A program made the translations under genes and the position numbers. Shown here piece after piece: positions 1-5,980 of a DNA stretch of 64,000 nucleotides. Source of the stretch: Hyphomicrobiales bacterium (GTDB lineage Bacteria > Pseudomonadota > Alphaproteobacteria > Rhizobiales > Rhizobiaceae); the NCBI GenBank assembly GCA_900471605.1, contig UCEY01000020.1, forward strand, positions 1-64,000, written 5' to 3'. Numbering within the stretch: position 1 is the stretch's first letter; the number at the start of each line of letters is the position of its first letter. The notes under the pieces were generated by a model, which was given only the letters and a program-made list of their open reading frames with translations, did not search any database and was not told the origin of the DNA.

Positions 1-73
1 CGATTTTCTCGCCTGCGCGATTGCGGGCGCAGGTGATGCGACGACGAAAATCCTCGCGCAGGCGAGAAAATCG
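1..73. repeat. Perfect 20-bp inverted repeat around a 33-bp spacer
   Basis: Positions 1-20 and 54-73 are exact reverse complements (CGATTTTCTCGCCTGCGCGA and its complement); the spacer is 21-53. The repeat lies inside the partial MmgE/PrpD gene. The spacer is a multiple of three, so both orientations keep the frame open, but only the inverted one encodes the family motif. The repeat may extend left of the window. Confidence 0.9.
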
Positions 74-198
74 ACAATCGCCGTCCGCGCGGCCGTCATC
101 GCGGGGCCATTCGTCGTCGGGTCCGATGCCACGATCGCCTCGGCAAAAGCTTGGGTGCGCGGAAAGGTTTGGCTCGCTGGAAAGGCAGGTGTCGTCAT
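1..198 (-). CDS. MmgE/PrpD family protein, N-terminal part (runs off the window)
   Basis: An open frame starts with ATG at 198, overlapping the stop of the ABC ATPase by ATGA, so it is the next gene of the same leftward operon. The first 50 or so residues contain AMTAARTAIVDFLACA, which aligns with AMGRARDAVVDTIGCM in the MmgE/PrpD protein at 3587-4966 and is typical of this family (2-methylcitrate dehydratase and related dehydratases and epimerases). After DFLACA the sequence stops looking like the family (RIFVVASPAPAIAQ), exactly where a 20-bp inverted repeat begins. Inverting the 33-bp spacer gives DFLACAIAGAGD in the same frame, the expected sequence. The gene is therefore seen with a micro-inversion or an assembly fold-back. 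The family call rests on the N-terminus only. Confidence 0.6.
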   Translation of the reverse strand, partial: MTTPAFPASQTFPRTQAFAEAIVASDPTTNGPAMTAARTAIVDFLACARIFVVASPAPAIAQARKS

Positions 199-998
199 GG
201 CATGGGATCCGGTAAGGCGTCGCCGTTGCGCGCAGCACTTCGTCCGCCCGACAGGCCGCCGACGAACTGACGGATTCGCGAATTGTCCGAGCCGCGGAAG
301 ATCTGCTCCGGCGTTCCCGATGCGACCACCCGTCCGTTCTCGGTGAAGACCACCGTGTCGCTGATCTCTTCCGCAAAGCGCATTTCATGCGTGACGAGAA
401 TGCTGGTCATCCCCTCGCGGATCAGATCGCGGATGACCCACAGGACCTCGCCGACCGTTTCCGGATCCAGCGCGGAGGTGACTTCATCGAACAGCACGAG
501 TTCGGGTTTCATCGCGAGCGCACGGGCGATCGCTACGCGCTGCTGCTGACCGCCCGAAAGTTCGCCGGGATAGGCTTTCGCCTTGTCCGACAGGCGCACC
601 TTTTCGAGAAGCTCCCGGGCAAATACCTCGGTCGCCCGCCGTTCCGCCCCCAGAATGCGCGTCGGAGCCAGTACGATATTGTCGAGCACGGTCAGGTGCG
701 GAAAGAGATTATATTGCTGGAAGACGATGCCTACACGCTTCCGCAGCGCGATCCGCTCGGTCTCGCGCGTCAGCTGGTCAACCCGCGTACCACCGACCGT
801 GATCTGGCCGCTCTGCGGCTGGACGAGTGCATTGATGCAGCGCAGGATGGTCGACTTCCCGGAACCGGATGGCCCGATGATCGATACCGCGTCGCCCCTG
901 TTCACCGTGAGATCGATGCCTTTGAGCACCTGAGTCTGCCCGAAGGACAGATGGACATCCTCCAGCCGGACGAGCGCGGTTTCTGTCGGTTCTGACAT
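195..998 (-). CDS. Polar amino-acid ABC transporter ATP-binding protein (GlnQ/HisP type)
   Basis: 267-residue cytoplasmic ATPase that energises the two permeases upstream. Visible motifs are Walker A (GPSGSGKST), the Q-loop (FQQYNLFPHL), signature LSGGQQQR and Walker B/D-loop (LVLFDEVTSALDPE). The length is normal for the polar amino-acid uptake family. I chose ATG at 998 (MSEPTE), which has AGAGGA upstream; an in-frame ATG at 1031 overlapping the permease stop is the alternative. It is the fourth gene of a leftward operon (binding protein, two permeases, ATPase) and its stop overlaps the start of the partial MmgE/PrpD gene. The amino acid or analogue transported cannot be read from the sequence. 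Confidence 0.93.
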   Translation of the reverse strand: MSEPTETALVRLEDVHLSFGQTQVLKGIDLTVNRGDAVSIIGPSGSGKSTILRCINALVQPQSGQITVGGTRVDQLTRETERIALRKRVGIVFQQYNLFPHLTVLDNIVLAPTRILGAERRATEVFARELLEKVRLSDKAKAYPGELSGGQQQRVAIARALAMKPELVLFDEVTSALDPETVGEVLWVIRDLIREGMTSILVTHEMRFAEEISDTVVFTENGRVVASGTPEQIFRGSDNSRIRQFVGGLSGGRSAARNGDALPDPMP

Positions 999-1020
999 AG
1001 GTGACGTCCTCTCGCTGCTC

Positions 1021-1800
1021 TCAAGCTGCATGGAAGCGCCCCTCCATCCGGCGCGTGAGGCGGGAAATCGGGTAGCAAAGGGTGAAAAACGCGGCCATCA
1101 CGACGAGGTAGGCGATGATGGTGAAATCGAGACGACGCACGGCCGTGCTTGCATCGGTCGCGGCGTGGAGGAGTTCGTGGACGCCCACCAGCGAGGCCAG
1201 CGCCGTGCCCATGGTGATCGAAGCGAGCACGTTCATCCAGGGCGGCAGGGAGCGGCGAAGGCATTGCGGCAGGATGATCCAGCGAAGCGCCTGCCCGTGC
1301 GAGAAACCGAGCCCCTTGGCCGCTTCCCACTGCGTCGTCGGAATAGAGAGGATGGCGCCGCGGGTAATTTCGGCGACATAGGCGCTGGCGGGAATGGCAA
1401 GGCCGATCACCGCCTTCACCCAGTCGGGAAATGGCAGGTACGTTCCGTAGATCACGATCTCGAAGGGAAAGATGTAGGTCGTGGCGAAAATGAGCACCAG
1501 ATGCGGCGCGTTGCGGAACAGCTGCACGTAGGCCGCGACCGGATAACGCACCAGCCGGAACGGCGCCAGCGACAGCATGCCGAAAAGCGCACCGACCACC
1601 GTCCCGAGCGTCATGGCGGACAGCGCAATGACGACGTTCATCATGAAGCCTGAGGCAAGGTAGGGCACCCACTGCAGAAGCTCGCGGCCGAGCGTGGGGT
1701 CGGCGACCGCCGACAGGATGACGACCAGCGGCAGGGCGACGAAGGCGCCATTGCGCAGGATGCGGCCGCCGGTGCGGGGCTGCTGGATTTGTGCGCGCAT
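1021..1800 (-). CDS. Polar amino-acid ABC transporter permease (HisM/GlnP family), second subunit
   Basis: 259-residue inner-membrane permease starting MRAQIQQP. It has several hydrophobic segments and the family's cytoplasmic coupling loop (TQWEAAKGLGFSHGQALRWIILPQ), a His/Glu/Gln/Arg/opine-type signature. The ATG at 1800 overlaps the stop of the preceding permease by one base (TGATG), indicating translational coupling. A longer open frame reaching to 2367 is a shadow of the neighbouring permease. With its partner it should form the heterodimeric channel of the importer. Confidence 0.92.
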   Translation of the reverse strand: MRAQIQQPRTGGRILRNGAFVALPLVVILSAVADPTLGRELLQWVPYLASGFMMNVVIALSAMTLGTVVGALFGMLSLAPFRLVRYPVAAYVQLFRNAPHLVLIFATTYIFPFEIVIYGTYLPFPDWVKAVIGLAIPASAYVAEITRGAILSIPTTQWEAAKGLGFSHGQALRWIILPQCLRRSLPPWMNVLASITMGTALASLVGVHELLHAATDASTAVRRLDFTIIAYLVVMAAFFTLCYPISRLTRRMEGRFHAA

Positions 1801-2546
1801 CAGAGACCGTATCCCGGCACGGCGAGCCTCCGCTCGACCCAGAGCCCGAGGCGGGCGACGACGAAGTTGATCAGGCTGAAGAAGAGCAGGATGACGATCA
1901 TCAGCGACACGACGTTGTCGCGCTGCGTCCACACCATGATGGAGGCATAGGTGATCTCGCTGACGGCGATCGCATTTCCGACAGTCGTCAGCTTCACCAG
2001 GTTGATCAGGTTGTTGACGATGGCCGGCAGCGAAGCCCGGAATGCGAGGGGAACCTCGACATAGCGCAGGATCTGCAGCGGGCTGAAGCCGATACCCCGG
2101 GCCGCCTCCACGGTGGATGCCGGCACCGCCTCGATGCCGGCGCGGATCGCCTCGGCATGGAGTGCCGCGATGTGCAGCCCGACGACCGCCACCACCCAGA
2201 AGAAAGGTGAAAGCGGGTTGTTCTGAACGCCGCCCACGAGGCTGGACACGAACGTGTTGAGCACCAGGAAGCTGAACATCAACTGCACCAGCGTCGGCGT
2301 GTTGCGCGTCACTTCCACGAACGCGCGCACCGGCACCGACAGCCACAGGCGCCCCGAAGTGAGGCAAGCGGCGAAGACGAGGCCGAAGACGAGGCTGACG
2401 GGTATCAACAGCACGATGAGAAAGAGCGTCGTGGCAAAGCCATCACGCCAGATCTGGGCCTCGTAGCCGGTCGAGAGAAACTCGTAATTCAGGCCGATCC
2501 TGCTCGTCAGGCTGACGAACAGGTCGGTAACATTGAAATCGGGCAT
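1800..2546 (-). CDS. Polar amino-acid ABC transporter permease (HisQ/GlnP family), first subunit
   Basis: 248-residue membrane permease. It shows the N-terminal periplasmic stretch seen in GltJ-like permeases (LNYEFLSTGYEAQIWRDG), then membrane segments, the motif VEVTRNTPTLVQL and the EAA loop (VEAARGIGFSPLQILRYVEVP) that contacts the ATPase. It lies 23 bp downstream of the binding-protein gene and overlaps the next permease by one base. The pairing of two related permeases with one ATPase and one soluble binding protein is the normal composition of this family. Confidence 0.92.
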   Translation of the reverse strand: MPDFNVTDLFVSLTSRIGLNYEFLSTGYEAQIWRDGFATTLFLIVLLIPVSLVFGLVFAACLTSGRLWLSVPVRAFVEVTRNTPTLVQLMFSFLVLNTFVSSLVGGVQNNPLSPFFWVVAVVGLHIAALHAEAIRAGIEAVPASTVEAARGIGFSPLQILRYVEVPLAFRASLPAIVNNLINLVKLTTVGNAIAVSEITYASIMVWTQRDNVVSLMIVILLFFSLINFVVARLGLWVERRLAVPGYGL

Positions 2547-2569
2547 GGCGCTCTATCGGTGCATTCGCT

Positions 2570-3406
2570 TCACTGAGCTGCGGAAAGCGCCTTCTGTTGC
2601 TGTTGCAGGTATTCGGTGCTGAGCAAACGGTTGGCTTTCGCGAATTCCAGAATCTTGCCGGAAGCGTGCAGCTTCTTGACGGTGGCGTCCAGTGCCGCCG
2701 TGGTATCGGCCTCGCCCTTTCGCAGCCAGATCACCGAGTCCGACGGAATGAGTTCGGTCGGAAAGAGGATGGCGTAGTCCTTCCACTCTTCGGGCCGGTC
2801 CTGCAGCAGGAGGCCGAGGGTGGCGCCGACATGAACGGCGACGTCGCAATTGCCGCCCTGCAGGGCAAGGAGCGATTCCGGCTGGCTCGGCAGCGCCTTC
2901 ACCTGCGCGCCATATTCCTCGATCAGCGGCTGCGTGTAGTTGGAGCCCTGGGAAACGCAGGCTGTCTTGCCCTTGAGGCCCGCCCAGTCCTTCAGGCCGC
3001 TGTCCTTGCGGCCGATCGCCGCTCCGCCGGCACGGTCATAGGCCGTCGGCACATAGCCGAGCACTTTGGCGCGCTCCTCTGTGTATTGCATGTTGGCGAT
3101 CAGGATATCGACCTTGCCCTGCTGCAGGAACTGGACGCGGTTGGGCGGCGTCACCGTCACTGTCTCCAGCTTTACCCCGAGATCGTCGGCGAGGCCCTTG
3201 GCGATGTCGAGATTGAAACCCTTCTGCTCCTGCGTCTTCGGATCGATGAAGCCGAACGGTGCGCCCGACAGGATGACGCCGACGGTCAACGTGCCGCGCG
3301 CCTTGATCCGGTCGAGTGTCGCATCGGCCGATGCCGTCGTCGCACTCAGGGCGCAGATGGACATGGCAAGCGCGAAAAGGGATTTGATCGGGGTCTTGGA
3401 TGGCAT
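2570..3406 (-). CDS. Amino-acid ABC transporter periplasmic substrate-binding protein
   Basis: 278 residues with a Sec signal peptide (MPSKTPIKSLFALAMS...TTASA, cleavage about residue 27) followed by a type II periplasmic-binding fold: LDRIKARGTLTVGV, then PFGFIDPKTQEQKGFNLDIAKGLADDLG, the usual ligand-contact regions of family 3 binding proteins. AGGAG sits 8 nt before the ATG. It is the first ABC gene of the leftward operon. The MmgE/PrpD gene 180 bp upstream is on the same strand, so the ligand may be a carboxylated amino acid or derivative handled by that enzyme; this is inference. Confidence 0.92.
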   Translation of the reverse strand: MPSKTPIKSLFALAMSICALSATTASADATLDRIKARGTLTVGVILSGAPFGFIDPKTQEQKGFNLDIAKGLADDLGVKLETVTVTPPNRVQFLQQGKVDILIANMQYTEERAKVLGYVPTAYDRAGGAAIGRKDSGLKDWAGLKGKTACVSQGSNYTQPLIEEYGAQVKALPSQPESLLALQGGNCDVAVHVGATLGLLLQDRPEEWKDYAILFPTELIPSDSVIWLRKGEADTTAALDATVKKLHASGKILEFAKANRLLSTEYLQQQQKALSAAQ

Positions 3407-3586: not shown

Positions 3587-4966
3587 TCACCGCCTTTCAG
3601 AATGAGTATCTGCGATCAGGTTCCAGAATGCTGCGTCGTCAGCCAGATTGATGAAATCCGCCAGGTCTCGCAGTTGGGGATAAAAGGTCTCAAAATTGTC
3701 CTGTTTCCCCCAGCGCAAGCAGTCCGCGAACTTGGCTTTTCGCTCGCAATCGCTCAATGGCGCTTCGAGCGAACCTTTCGCGTGCAAGCGAGATTTGCTG
3801 TAGATGCGGCCCTCGCGCGTCGTGACAGTGACGATGTGCGGAAGGCGCTCCACGCCTTTTTCCTCGTCGGCCGAATAGGGCAGCATTTCGATGCGCGGCA
3901 TGAATTGCCGGGTTTCCGGTCGCCCGATCTCCTGCCGTGTAAAGTCGGAAAGGCTGAGGGAGCCTTTGAGGAAAGCGGTCGCCAGGCAATATTGCATCGA
4001 GAAGCGCGCCTGCATCTCGTCGGCGGGGTCGGGATAAGCGAGGTTGCGGGCAGCGGATATGCCGACTTTCGTTTCGATCCTGGCAATGTCGCCTGCCAAA
4101 AGCCCATGCTCCTGCTTCAGATCCAGAAGCGCGTCGATCGCGCGATGGGTCGAGGCGCAGCACGGATGGCGCTTTGTCACCACGCCCCGGCTTTCGATGA
4201 CATGCTCCTCGCCGAATGTCAGGTTTTCCCAGCCCTTGGCATCAGCGCCCCCGAAAAGATCGAGGAAGCCTTGCGGCCGCTCGAGGATATCGGACCGCCC
4301 ACTCATGCCAGCGAGTGCCATGCGCGCCGCATCCACGGCATTGCGTGCTGCAATGCCGGCGTGAAGCGGCTTGGCGGTCGTGCCGAATTGGCCTTTCGGG
4401 CCGCAGGCGAGGCTCGTTGCGAGGCTCATCGCCATGGCCAGGCTCTCTTCGTCGGCGCCGAGAAGCCGCGCCACGCCAGCCGCTGCCCCAATGCTGCCGA
4501 CCGTCGCCGTCGCATGCCAGCCGATGTTGTAGTGAGAGGGATTGACGCCGAAGCCGACTGCCGCTTGCGCCTCCAATCCAGTCAAGTAGCCCTCAAGGAA
4601 CCGCCTCCCGCTTATGGCCTTGCCGCTCGCAGCGACCGCCAGCAGCGCCGGTACCAGCACCGCCGACGCGTGGGCCCTTGCGGGATGAAAATTGTCATCG
4701 AAATCCAGTGCATGCGCTGCGGTTGCGTTGATGAGGGCGGCAAGCGAAGGCGAGGCGGAGCCGCCGGTGACGAGCCGCGCTTTGCCGCCTGCGGCGATTT
4801 CTCCGTCGAAGGCGCGGGTAAGCGCGGCTACACTTTCATCGCCCCTGCCTGCGATCATGCAGCCGATGGTGTCCACCACCGCATCCCTTGCCCGGCCCAT
4901 GGCGAGGTCCGAGAACGCCGTTCGCGACATGACCTGTTGCGCAATCCTGCTGAGAATGGTGGCCAT
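3587..4966 (-). CDS. MmgE/PrpD family protein
   Basis: 459 residues, the usual family length. ATG at 4966 (MATILSRIAQQ) is preceded by AAGGAAAG; the open frame continues upstream to 5185 but would overlap the divergent LysR gene. Family features are VVDTIGCMIAG near residue 35, LDFDDNFHPARAHASAVLVPALLA, and FGTTAKPLHAGIAARNAV, which matches the lysine/histidine active-site region of PrpD-like proteins. The family includes 2-methylcitrate dehydratase, cis-aconitate decarboxylase and iminodisuccinate epimerase, so the reaction cannot be fixed. It lies upstream of the amino-acid ABC operon on the same strand and is divergent from a LysR gene that probably controls it. Confidence 0.88.
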   Translation of the reverse strand: MATILSRIAQQVMSRTAFSDLAMGRARDAVVDTIGCMIAGRGDESVAALTRAFDGEIAAGGKARLVTGGSASPSLAALINATAAHALDFDDNFHPARAHASAVLVPALLAVAASGKAISGRRFLEGYLTGLEAQAAVGFGVNPSHYNIGWHATATVGSIGAAAGVARLLGADEESLAMAMSLATSLACGPKGQFGTTAKPLHAGIAARNAVDAARMALAGMSGRSDILERPQGFLDLFGGADAKGWENLTFGEEHVIESRGVVTKRHPCCASTHRAIDALLDLKQEHGLLAGDIARIETKVGISAARNLAYPDPADEMQARFSMQYCLATAFLKGSLSLSDFTRQEIGRPETRQFMPRIEMLPYSADEEKGVERLPHIVTVTTREGRIYSKSRLHAKGSLEAPLSDCERKAKFADCLRWGKQDNFETFYPQLRDLADFINLADDAAFWNLIADTHSERR

Positions 4967-5074
4967 TGACGAAAGTCTTTCCTTGAGTTTGGTTCTCAGT
5001 GGAAAATGTTCAACTTCCCCCAGGTCCGCAATCTTATGCGGTTTGCGGGTAGGGCTATCGATATTGGAGATGGA

Positions 5075-5980
5075 ATGGCGCGGGACACGAGTGCGGCGAT
5101 CAGCCTGAAGCATATCGAGGCCTATGACGCCATTGCCGCGACGGGCTCGACGATCGCCGCTTCCGCCGAGCTTGGGATTTCGCAATCCAATGCCAGCCGC
5201 CTGTTACAGCAACTGGAAGACTATCTCGGCGTCCGGCTTTTCGAGCGGGAAAAGAACCGGCTTCAACCGACCCGCGAGGGGCTGCAACTCGGTCCGGAAA
5301 TCCGTGCCATTTCCGACCGGCTGCGCGCCTTGAAAACGGCGGCGATGGAGCTCGAGAGCGGGCGGTCGCGCGAAATCATGCTGCGGCTCGCCTTTCCCTC
5401 CAGCCTTTCCTTCACGCGCATTCCGAAGTTGGTGAAGAGTTTTCTCGCAGCGAATGGGCCGATGCGCGTCGAGGTCGCATCCGGCAGCTACCTCGCGATC
5501 GAACGGATGGTGGCCGATGGCGAGGCTGATCTGGGCTTCACGCGTCTGCCGCTGATGAGCCCGGGATTGAAACAGGAGAAGATCCTGTCGTCGCGGGTCA
5601 TCTGCGCCTTGCATAACGATCATCCCAAGGCCGGCAGCGAGCTGTTGTCGGTCGGCGATCTGAAGGGGCAGGATCTGATCATGCTGAACAGGGAGCGCCC
5701 CGTTCGCCATGAGCTGGAGGCGTTGTTCTACAAGGCCGGCATTCGCAAACGCCCCCTCCTCGAAGCGCATTCGGTGGCGAGCGCTTGCGCGCTGGCCGCC
5801 CATGGGCTGGGCATTGCGTTGGTCGGTGAGATCATCGCCCGCGAATATGCGACGCTGCCGCTGCAGTTCATTCCGCTCGAACCGGAACTGCCGATTGCTT
5901 ACGCACTGGTCAGCGGAGAAAAATTTCCGATCCCGAGGGTCGCCAGCCTTTTCCTCCAGAGCATCTCGGACTGGACGTGA
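5075..5980 (+). CDS. LysR family transcriptional regulator
   Basis: 301 residues from ATG 5075 (MARDTSAAISLKHIEAYDAI), with GGAGATGG just upstream. An N-terminal winged helix-turn-helix (GSTIAASAELGISQSNASRLLQQLE, then LGVRLFEREKNRLQPT) is followed by a LysR substrate-binding domain. It is divergent from the MmgE/PrpD gene across a 108-bp gap, the standard LysR arrangement for control of the neighbour. The inducer is unknown and is likely the substrate of the MmgE/PrpD enzyme or ABC importer. Confidence 0.9.
   Translation: MARDTSAAISLKHIEAYDAIAATGSTIAASAELGISQSNASRLLQQLEDYLGVRLFEREKNRLQPTREGLQLGPEIRAISDRLRALKTAAMELESGRSREIMLRLAFPSSLSFTRIPKLVKSFLAANGPMRVEVASGSYLAIERMVADGEADLGFTRLPLMSPGLKQEKILSSRVICALHNDHPKAGSELLSVGDLKGQDLIMLNRERPVRHELEALFYKAGIRKRPLLEAHSVASACALAAHGLGIALVGEIIAREYATLPLQFIPLEPELPIAYALVSGEKFPIPRVASLFLQSISDWT

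Follow-up and report, generated by a model that had tools for sequence, protein, structure and literature searches.

The window, that is the whole stretch of 64,000 nucleotides analysed here, is C63:1-64000 of a draft assembly of 7,124,970 bp in 110 contigs, and starts where contig C63 (95,258 bp) starts, at base 1. The left end of the window holds the start of an MmgE/PrpD gene read leftwards, and upstream of it lie the genes of an ABC transporter (Table 1). The gene order solute-binding protein, permease, permease, ATPase, PrpD and luciferase-like monooxygenase is kept at 80 of 80 related loci (the best 80 of 173 found by a genome scan, with the best matches among Rhizobiaceae and Phyllobacterium), and in the studied genome the luciferase-like monooxygenase gene carries PF00296. 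As a whole the transporter-PrpD-luciferase-like monooxygenase cluster spans the window from 1 to 3406 together with L221:1-2565, and a second MmgE/PrpD gene stands beside it.

Table 1. Features at the left end of the window (contig C63), with positions in the window
Feature	Position	Strand	Remarks
Inverted repeat, outer arm	1-20	+	First bases of contig C63; the identical 20-mer begins contig C38
Spacer	21-53	+	In C63 wrongly oriented with respect to the gene start; in C38 the same bases are ordinary gene (IAGAGDATTKI)
Second arm, inner half	54-63	+	Natural 10-nt stem; also in C38 (54-63)
Second arm, outer half	64-73	+	Absent from C38, which reads CGTCGGTGCG; complements the gene's own upstream strand
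MmgE/PrpD gene, true 5' part	54-198	-	ATG at 198; goes on in C38 from base 21
ABC transporter ATPase	195-1031	-	Next upstream gene; PF00005; same neighbour in 80/80 related loci
Two ABC permease genes	1021-2546 (1021-1797, 1800-2546)	-	PF00528 in both; 80/80 related loci
Solute-binding protein	2570-3406	-	Same transporter; PF00497; 80/80 related loci
Second MmgE/PrpD gene	3587-5185		Beside the cluster; both Pfam domains; 38% identity to the split gene

An earlier note on this DNA had pointed to exact inverted repeats at the very start of the window, around a 33-bp spacer whose two orientations both stay open, and offered three readings: an invertible coding switch, a template-switch mutation at a hairpin or a fold-back error at a contig end. 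The description itself is confirmed, in that the arms, 33 nt apart, show 100% complementarity, and the frame translations, DFLACARIFVVASPAPAIAQARKS leftwards and DFLACAIAGAGDATTKILAQARKS rightwards, are both open. Such a structure is beyond chance in this window, where 126,800 interior starting points on both strands yielded 2 perfect fold-backs of at least 14 nt within 400 bases and none of at least 20 nt. Since the window begins where C63 begins, the outer arm sits exactly at a contig end. Genome-wide the arm is found three times when up to one mismatch is allowed (C38:1-20, C63:1-20 and C63:54-73), and that all three copies are at the starts of C63 and C38 supports a fold-back at the contig end.

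Elsewhere in this genome, a search showed contig C38 (367,250 bp) to begin with 63 bases identical to C63:1-63. Past base 63 C38 reads CGTCGG and then the remaining MmgE/PrpD gene, with 421 open codons counted from base 2; C63 past the same point reads GAGAAA, in the outer half of the second arm, and then the complement of the gene start. When the first 200 bases of each contig are compared on opposite strands, the longest match is that of C63:54-73, read on the minus strand, with C38:1-20. The part of the gene in C38 holds both family domains, PF03972 (MmgE_PrpD_N, 165.6 bits) and PF19305 (MmgE_PrpD_C, 62.5 bits), each above its gathering score (cut-offs 32.1), and so the family assignment in the earlier note stands. 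Of the second arm's 20 nt just 10 are in C38, and therefore the contiguous gene has no 20-bp repeat around the spacer.

How the two pieces belong together is seen in the relatives. Each of five close relatives carries the N-terminal piece (from C63) and the C-terminal piece (from C38) on a single contig and in the same frame, with DFLAC or DFLACA as the overlap. Among the best 80 of the 173 loci the N-terminal piece is present in 78, being in exact register with the C-terminal piece in 66 and offset from it in 12 (by -3 in seven, by -6 in two, and by 6, 18 and 1 once each), with no N-terminal match in the other two; the offsets are taken to be probable gaps in the local alignments. A wider set of 85 loci, made up of the 80 and five that probably repeat five of them, gives 71 in exact register, 12 offset and 2 with no N-terminal match. 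Across the 80 loci the spacer residues have a mean identity of 6.2 of 11 to the C38 reading versus 0.05 of 11 to the inverted reading, and the C38 orientation fits better in 79 of these best 80, so that the alternative orientation of the spacer is indeed the family-like one, as had been proposed from the window by itself. The remaining locus (L324, the one with offset 1) is out of frame at the spacer in the computed translation. A search of plasmid records returned 22, the best at 77.5% identity. From the shared gene order, the occurrence of the N-terminal and C-terminal pieces together and the fit of the spacer in relatives, C63 and C38 almost certainly adjoin in the replicon, and the gene that they share is an ordinary one. 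In the draft it is nevertheless cut in two, and a false C-terminus would be assigned to its first part.

Set against these data, an invertible coding switch, in which a recombinase flips the 33-nt spacer between 20-bp repeats for making two protein variants, is vanishingly unlikely. The structure resembles the invertible DNA switches of phase variation in having inverted repeats around a spacer that stays open either way, and a length of 33, a multiple of 3, favours such a switch too. However, the contiguous gene of C38 lacks the second arm's outer half and so has no 20-bp pair, which sets it apart from those systems and excludes a switch between 20-bp repeats for the contiguous gene. Even the 10-bp stem that is left is fully paired in just 1 of 80 relatives, and the inverted spacer was not seen at the gene site in relatives among the sense matches listed. 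That result comes from a permissive tblastn search with the inverted reading as query (E up to 1000), which gave matches in many relatives, with the best match spanning the spacer in 53 of 80 loci. The first qualifying match per locus was antisense in 60 and sense in 18, and the best matches listed, for 6 of 80 loci, are all antisense, lying on the strand opposite to the ordinary gene. A first sense match is listed for 61 loci, most of them elsewhere in the locus, and the sense matches that do fall at the gene site are gapped or mismatched alignments to the ordinary spacer, or lie in a different frame at that position.

A fixed template-switch (quasi-palindrome) mutation, by which the strain's gene itself would have the inverted spacer and the perfect arms, is what the C63 sequence taken alone would suggest. 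But in the same assembly C38 continues from the identical 20-mer with the ordinary spacer, and in relatives the pieces from C63 and C38 form one gene, so a mutation of this kind is extremely unlikely. Both readings, the switch and the hairpin mutation as a fixed change, had been put forward in the earlier note, and both are rejected here, contradicted by the contiguous gene that exists on C38 and in relatives.

The length of the arm is best considered together with the other contig ends of the assembly, of which 199 of 220 were taken and 181 were readable. An exact stretch of 20 nt is shared by 34 pairs of ends in the same direction and by 12 facing pairs, these including one end paired with itself; other shared lengths are 19 nt in 7 pairs and 14 to 93 in 8 pairs. 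Thus 20 nt is the usual end overlap of this assembly, and is probably its word length. The C63 arm has this same length, which fits the assembly and not a biological element. When the longest perfect inverted repeat of at least 13 nt was sought within the last 400 bases of each end, 14 of the 181 ends had one, and in 8 of the 14 it begins at base 1, with a length of 14-44 nt. Five of these eight look like palindromic repeats, and for those five another cause is needed. The arms of C32, C57, C85 and C98 recur in other stretches among the 375,805 bases searched (overlaps included); the exact arm of C54 was found at its own end only in the same search, and this end resembles the palindromic repeats of the other four. 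We read all five as dispersed repeats. The palindromic-repeat ends are those of L239:1-101, L185, L188, L224:1-120 and L241:1-80, an example being GGATCCTCGGGTCAAGCCCGAGGATGACG, and their arm recurs in each case except L185.

The fold-back ends whose arms do not belong to a repeat family are those of C63 and C83 (20 nt each) and of C15 (21 nt). Neither 375,805 bases (with overlaps) of the genome nor genome searches with 400 bases, a kind of search that would miss a lone arm, gave a second copy of the C83 or C15 arm. C83 adjoins C75 by an exact 20-nt overlap at C83:12-31, and has a natural stem of 9 nt with the outer 11 nt copied; the same anatomy as at C63, with a short stem, a copied stretch and an overlap to the neighbouring contig, supports the fold-back artefact. 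At its end C83 reads AVLAAG, and relatives read FATAAG in 6 of 7 cases and FASAAG in 1 of 7 (7 of 11 same-genus matches). The C83 start (L240:1-133) is a fold-back end inside a gene of which the C75 start (L121) holds the rest, and in our reading this gene has beta-propeller-like repeats. C15 adjoins C49, in that both match one relative side by side. The match of C15 begins at its base 19, and on the relative the two matches share about 15 nt; between C15 and C49 themselves an exact 20-nt overlap was not found. The blastn match of C15 to the relative was obtained with short words, and none with the default long word. The start of C15 (L238:1-56), with its 21-nt fold-back end, lies in an alanine/proline-rich gene, and the start of the neighbour C49 is L096.

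In the contiguous gene on C38 the natural inverted repeat amounts to 10 bp, C38:11-20 with C38:54-63, around a loop of 33 nt. From 1 to all 10 of its positions are paired in relatives, all 10 in 1 of 80 loci, and as single-stranded DNA C38:1-75 has a z of -1.07, with 30 of 200 shuffles folding at least as well. The stem is taken as accidental because its pairing is unconserved in relatives and its folding is no better than that of shuffles, and a conserved hairpin in the gene was rejected on the same two counts. The corresponding bases of the window (1-75), folded in the same way, reach a z of -7.88 because of the copied arm.

Overall the inverted repeat at the left end of contig C63 is very probably a fold-back (snap-back) junction, and so an artefact, and it is most likely not a real feature of the MmgE/PrpD gene. 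The third reading of the earlier note is thus the one that fits: position 1 is a contig end, and C38 holds the true continuation. In the mechanism proposed, the true gene runs on the minus strand of C63 from 198 down to 54 and then into C38 from base 21, and happens to contain an inverted repeat of 10 bp with its 33-nt loop (C38:11-20 and 54-63). In some of the sequenced molecules the strand would switch at this 10-bp stem and copy its own complement back. The outer 10 nt of the second arm and the C63 sequence that follows are the complement of the upstream strand, and this is the expected product of self-copying at a short stem. An assembler walking a graph of 20-mers from the gene start would presumably then meet a branch past the inner arm, of which the true branch would lead to the start of C38, while the fold-back branch would stay on C63 and would stop after a 20-nt arm, at a word already in C63. 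For scans of draft genomes this is a caution: a perfect inverted repeat from base 1 of a contig, with an arm the length of the usual end overlap, calls for a comparison with other contig starts before phase variation is claimed. Among the papers listed in a literature search we recognised none on a fold-back or snap-back artefact in bacterial contig ends.

As to where the strand switch arose, library preparation or amplification, not the cells, seems the most likely source, although real molecules, if rare in the culture, would give an identical picture. Real fold-back DNA could come about when replication switches template at short inverted repeats, giving inverted-dimer or hairpin-capped molecules in some cells, akin to the ODIRA model as set out in the portion of PMC10766183 cited here. 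That the graph requires molecules crossing the junction, that the stem is short and natural, and that C83 and C15 show similar ends all speak for this. But the stem is unconserved, and chimeras of such a shape made in libraries or by amplification are, in the portions of PMC10908179, PMC13141652 and PMC1855051 cited here, common and well described, and real fold-back DNA is accordingly given very little chance. The wider proposal, that natural stems of about 10 bp seed template switches at several loci and that hairpin-capped or inverted-dimer DNA is seen as contig ends, is just as improbable.

The chimeras that these excerpts report are from sonicated and enzyme-fragmented libraries (PMC10908179), from nanopore ligation libraries (PMC13141652) and from amplified single-cell DNA (PMC1855051). 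Like the junction in C63, the library chimeras of the PDSM model, as the cited part of PMC10908179 has it, form at a short natural inverted repeat, and past the repeat the chimeric read is the complement of its own strand; those are reads of human DNA, whereas here the contig end alone of a bacterial draft is seen. The chimeras of multiple displacement amplification resemble it in that their junctions are mostly inverted, and by the corresponding excerpt of PMC1855051 they are primed at 2-21 nt of complementarity, a range that covers the 9-10 nt stems found here.
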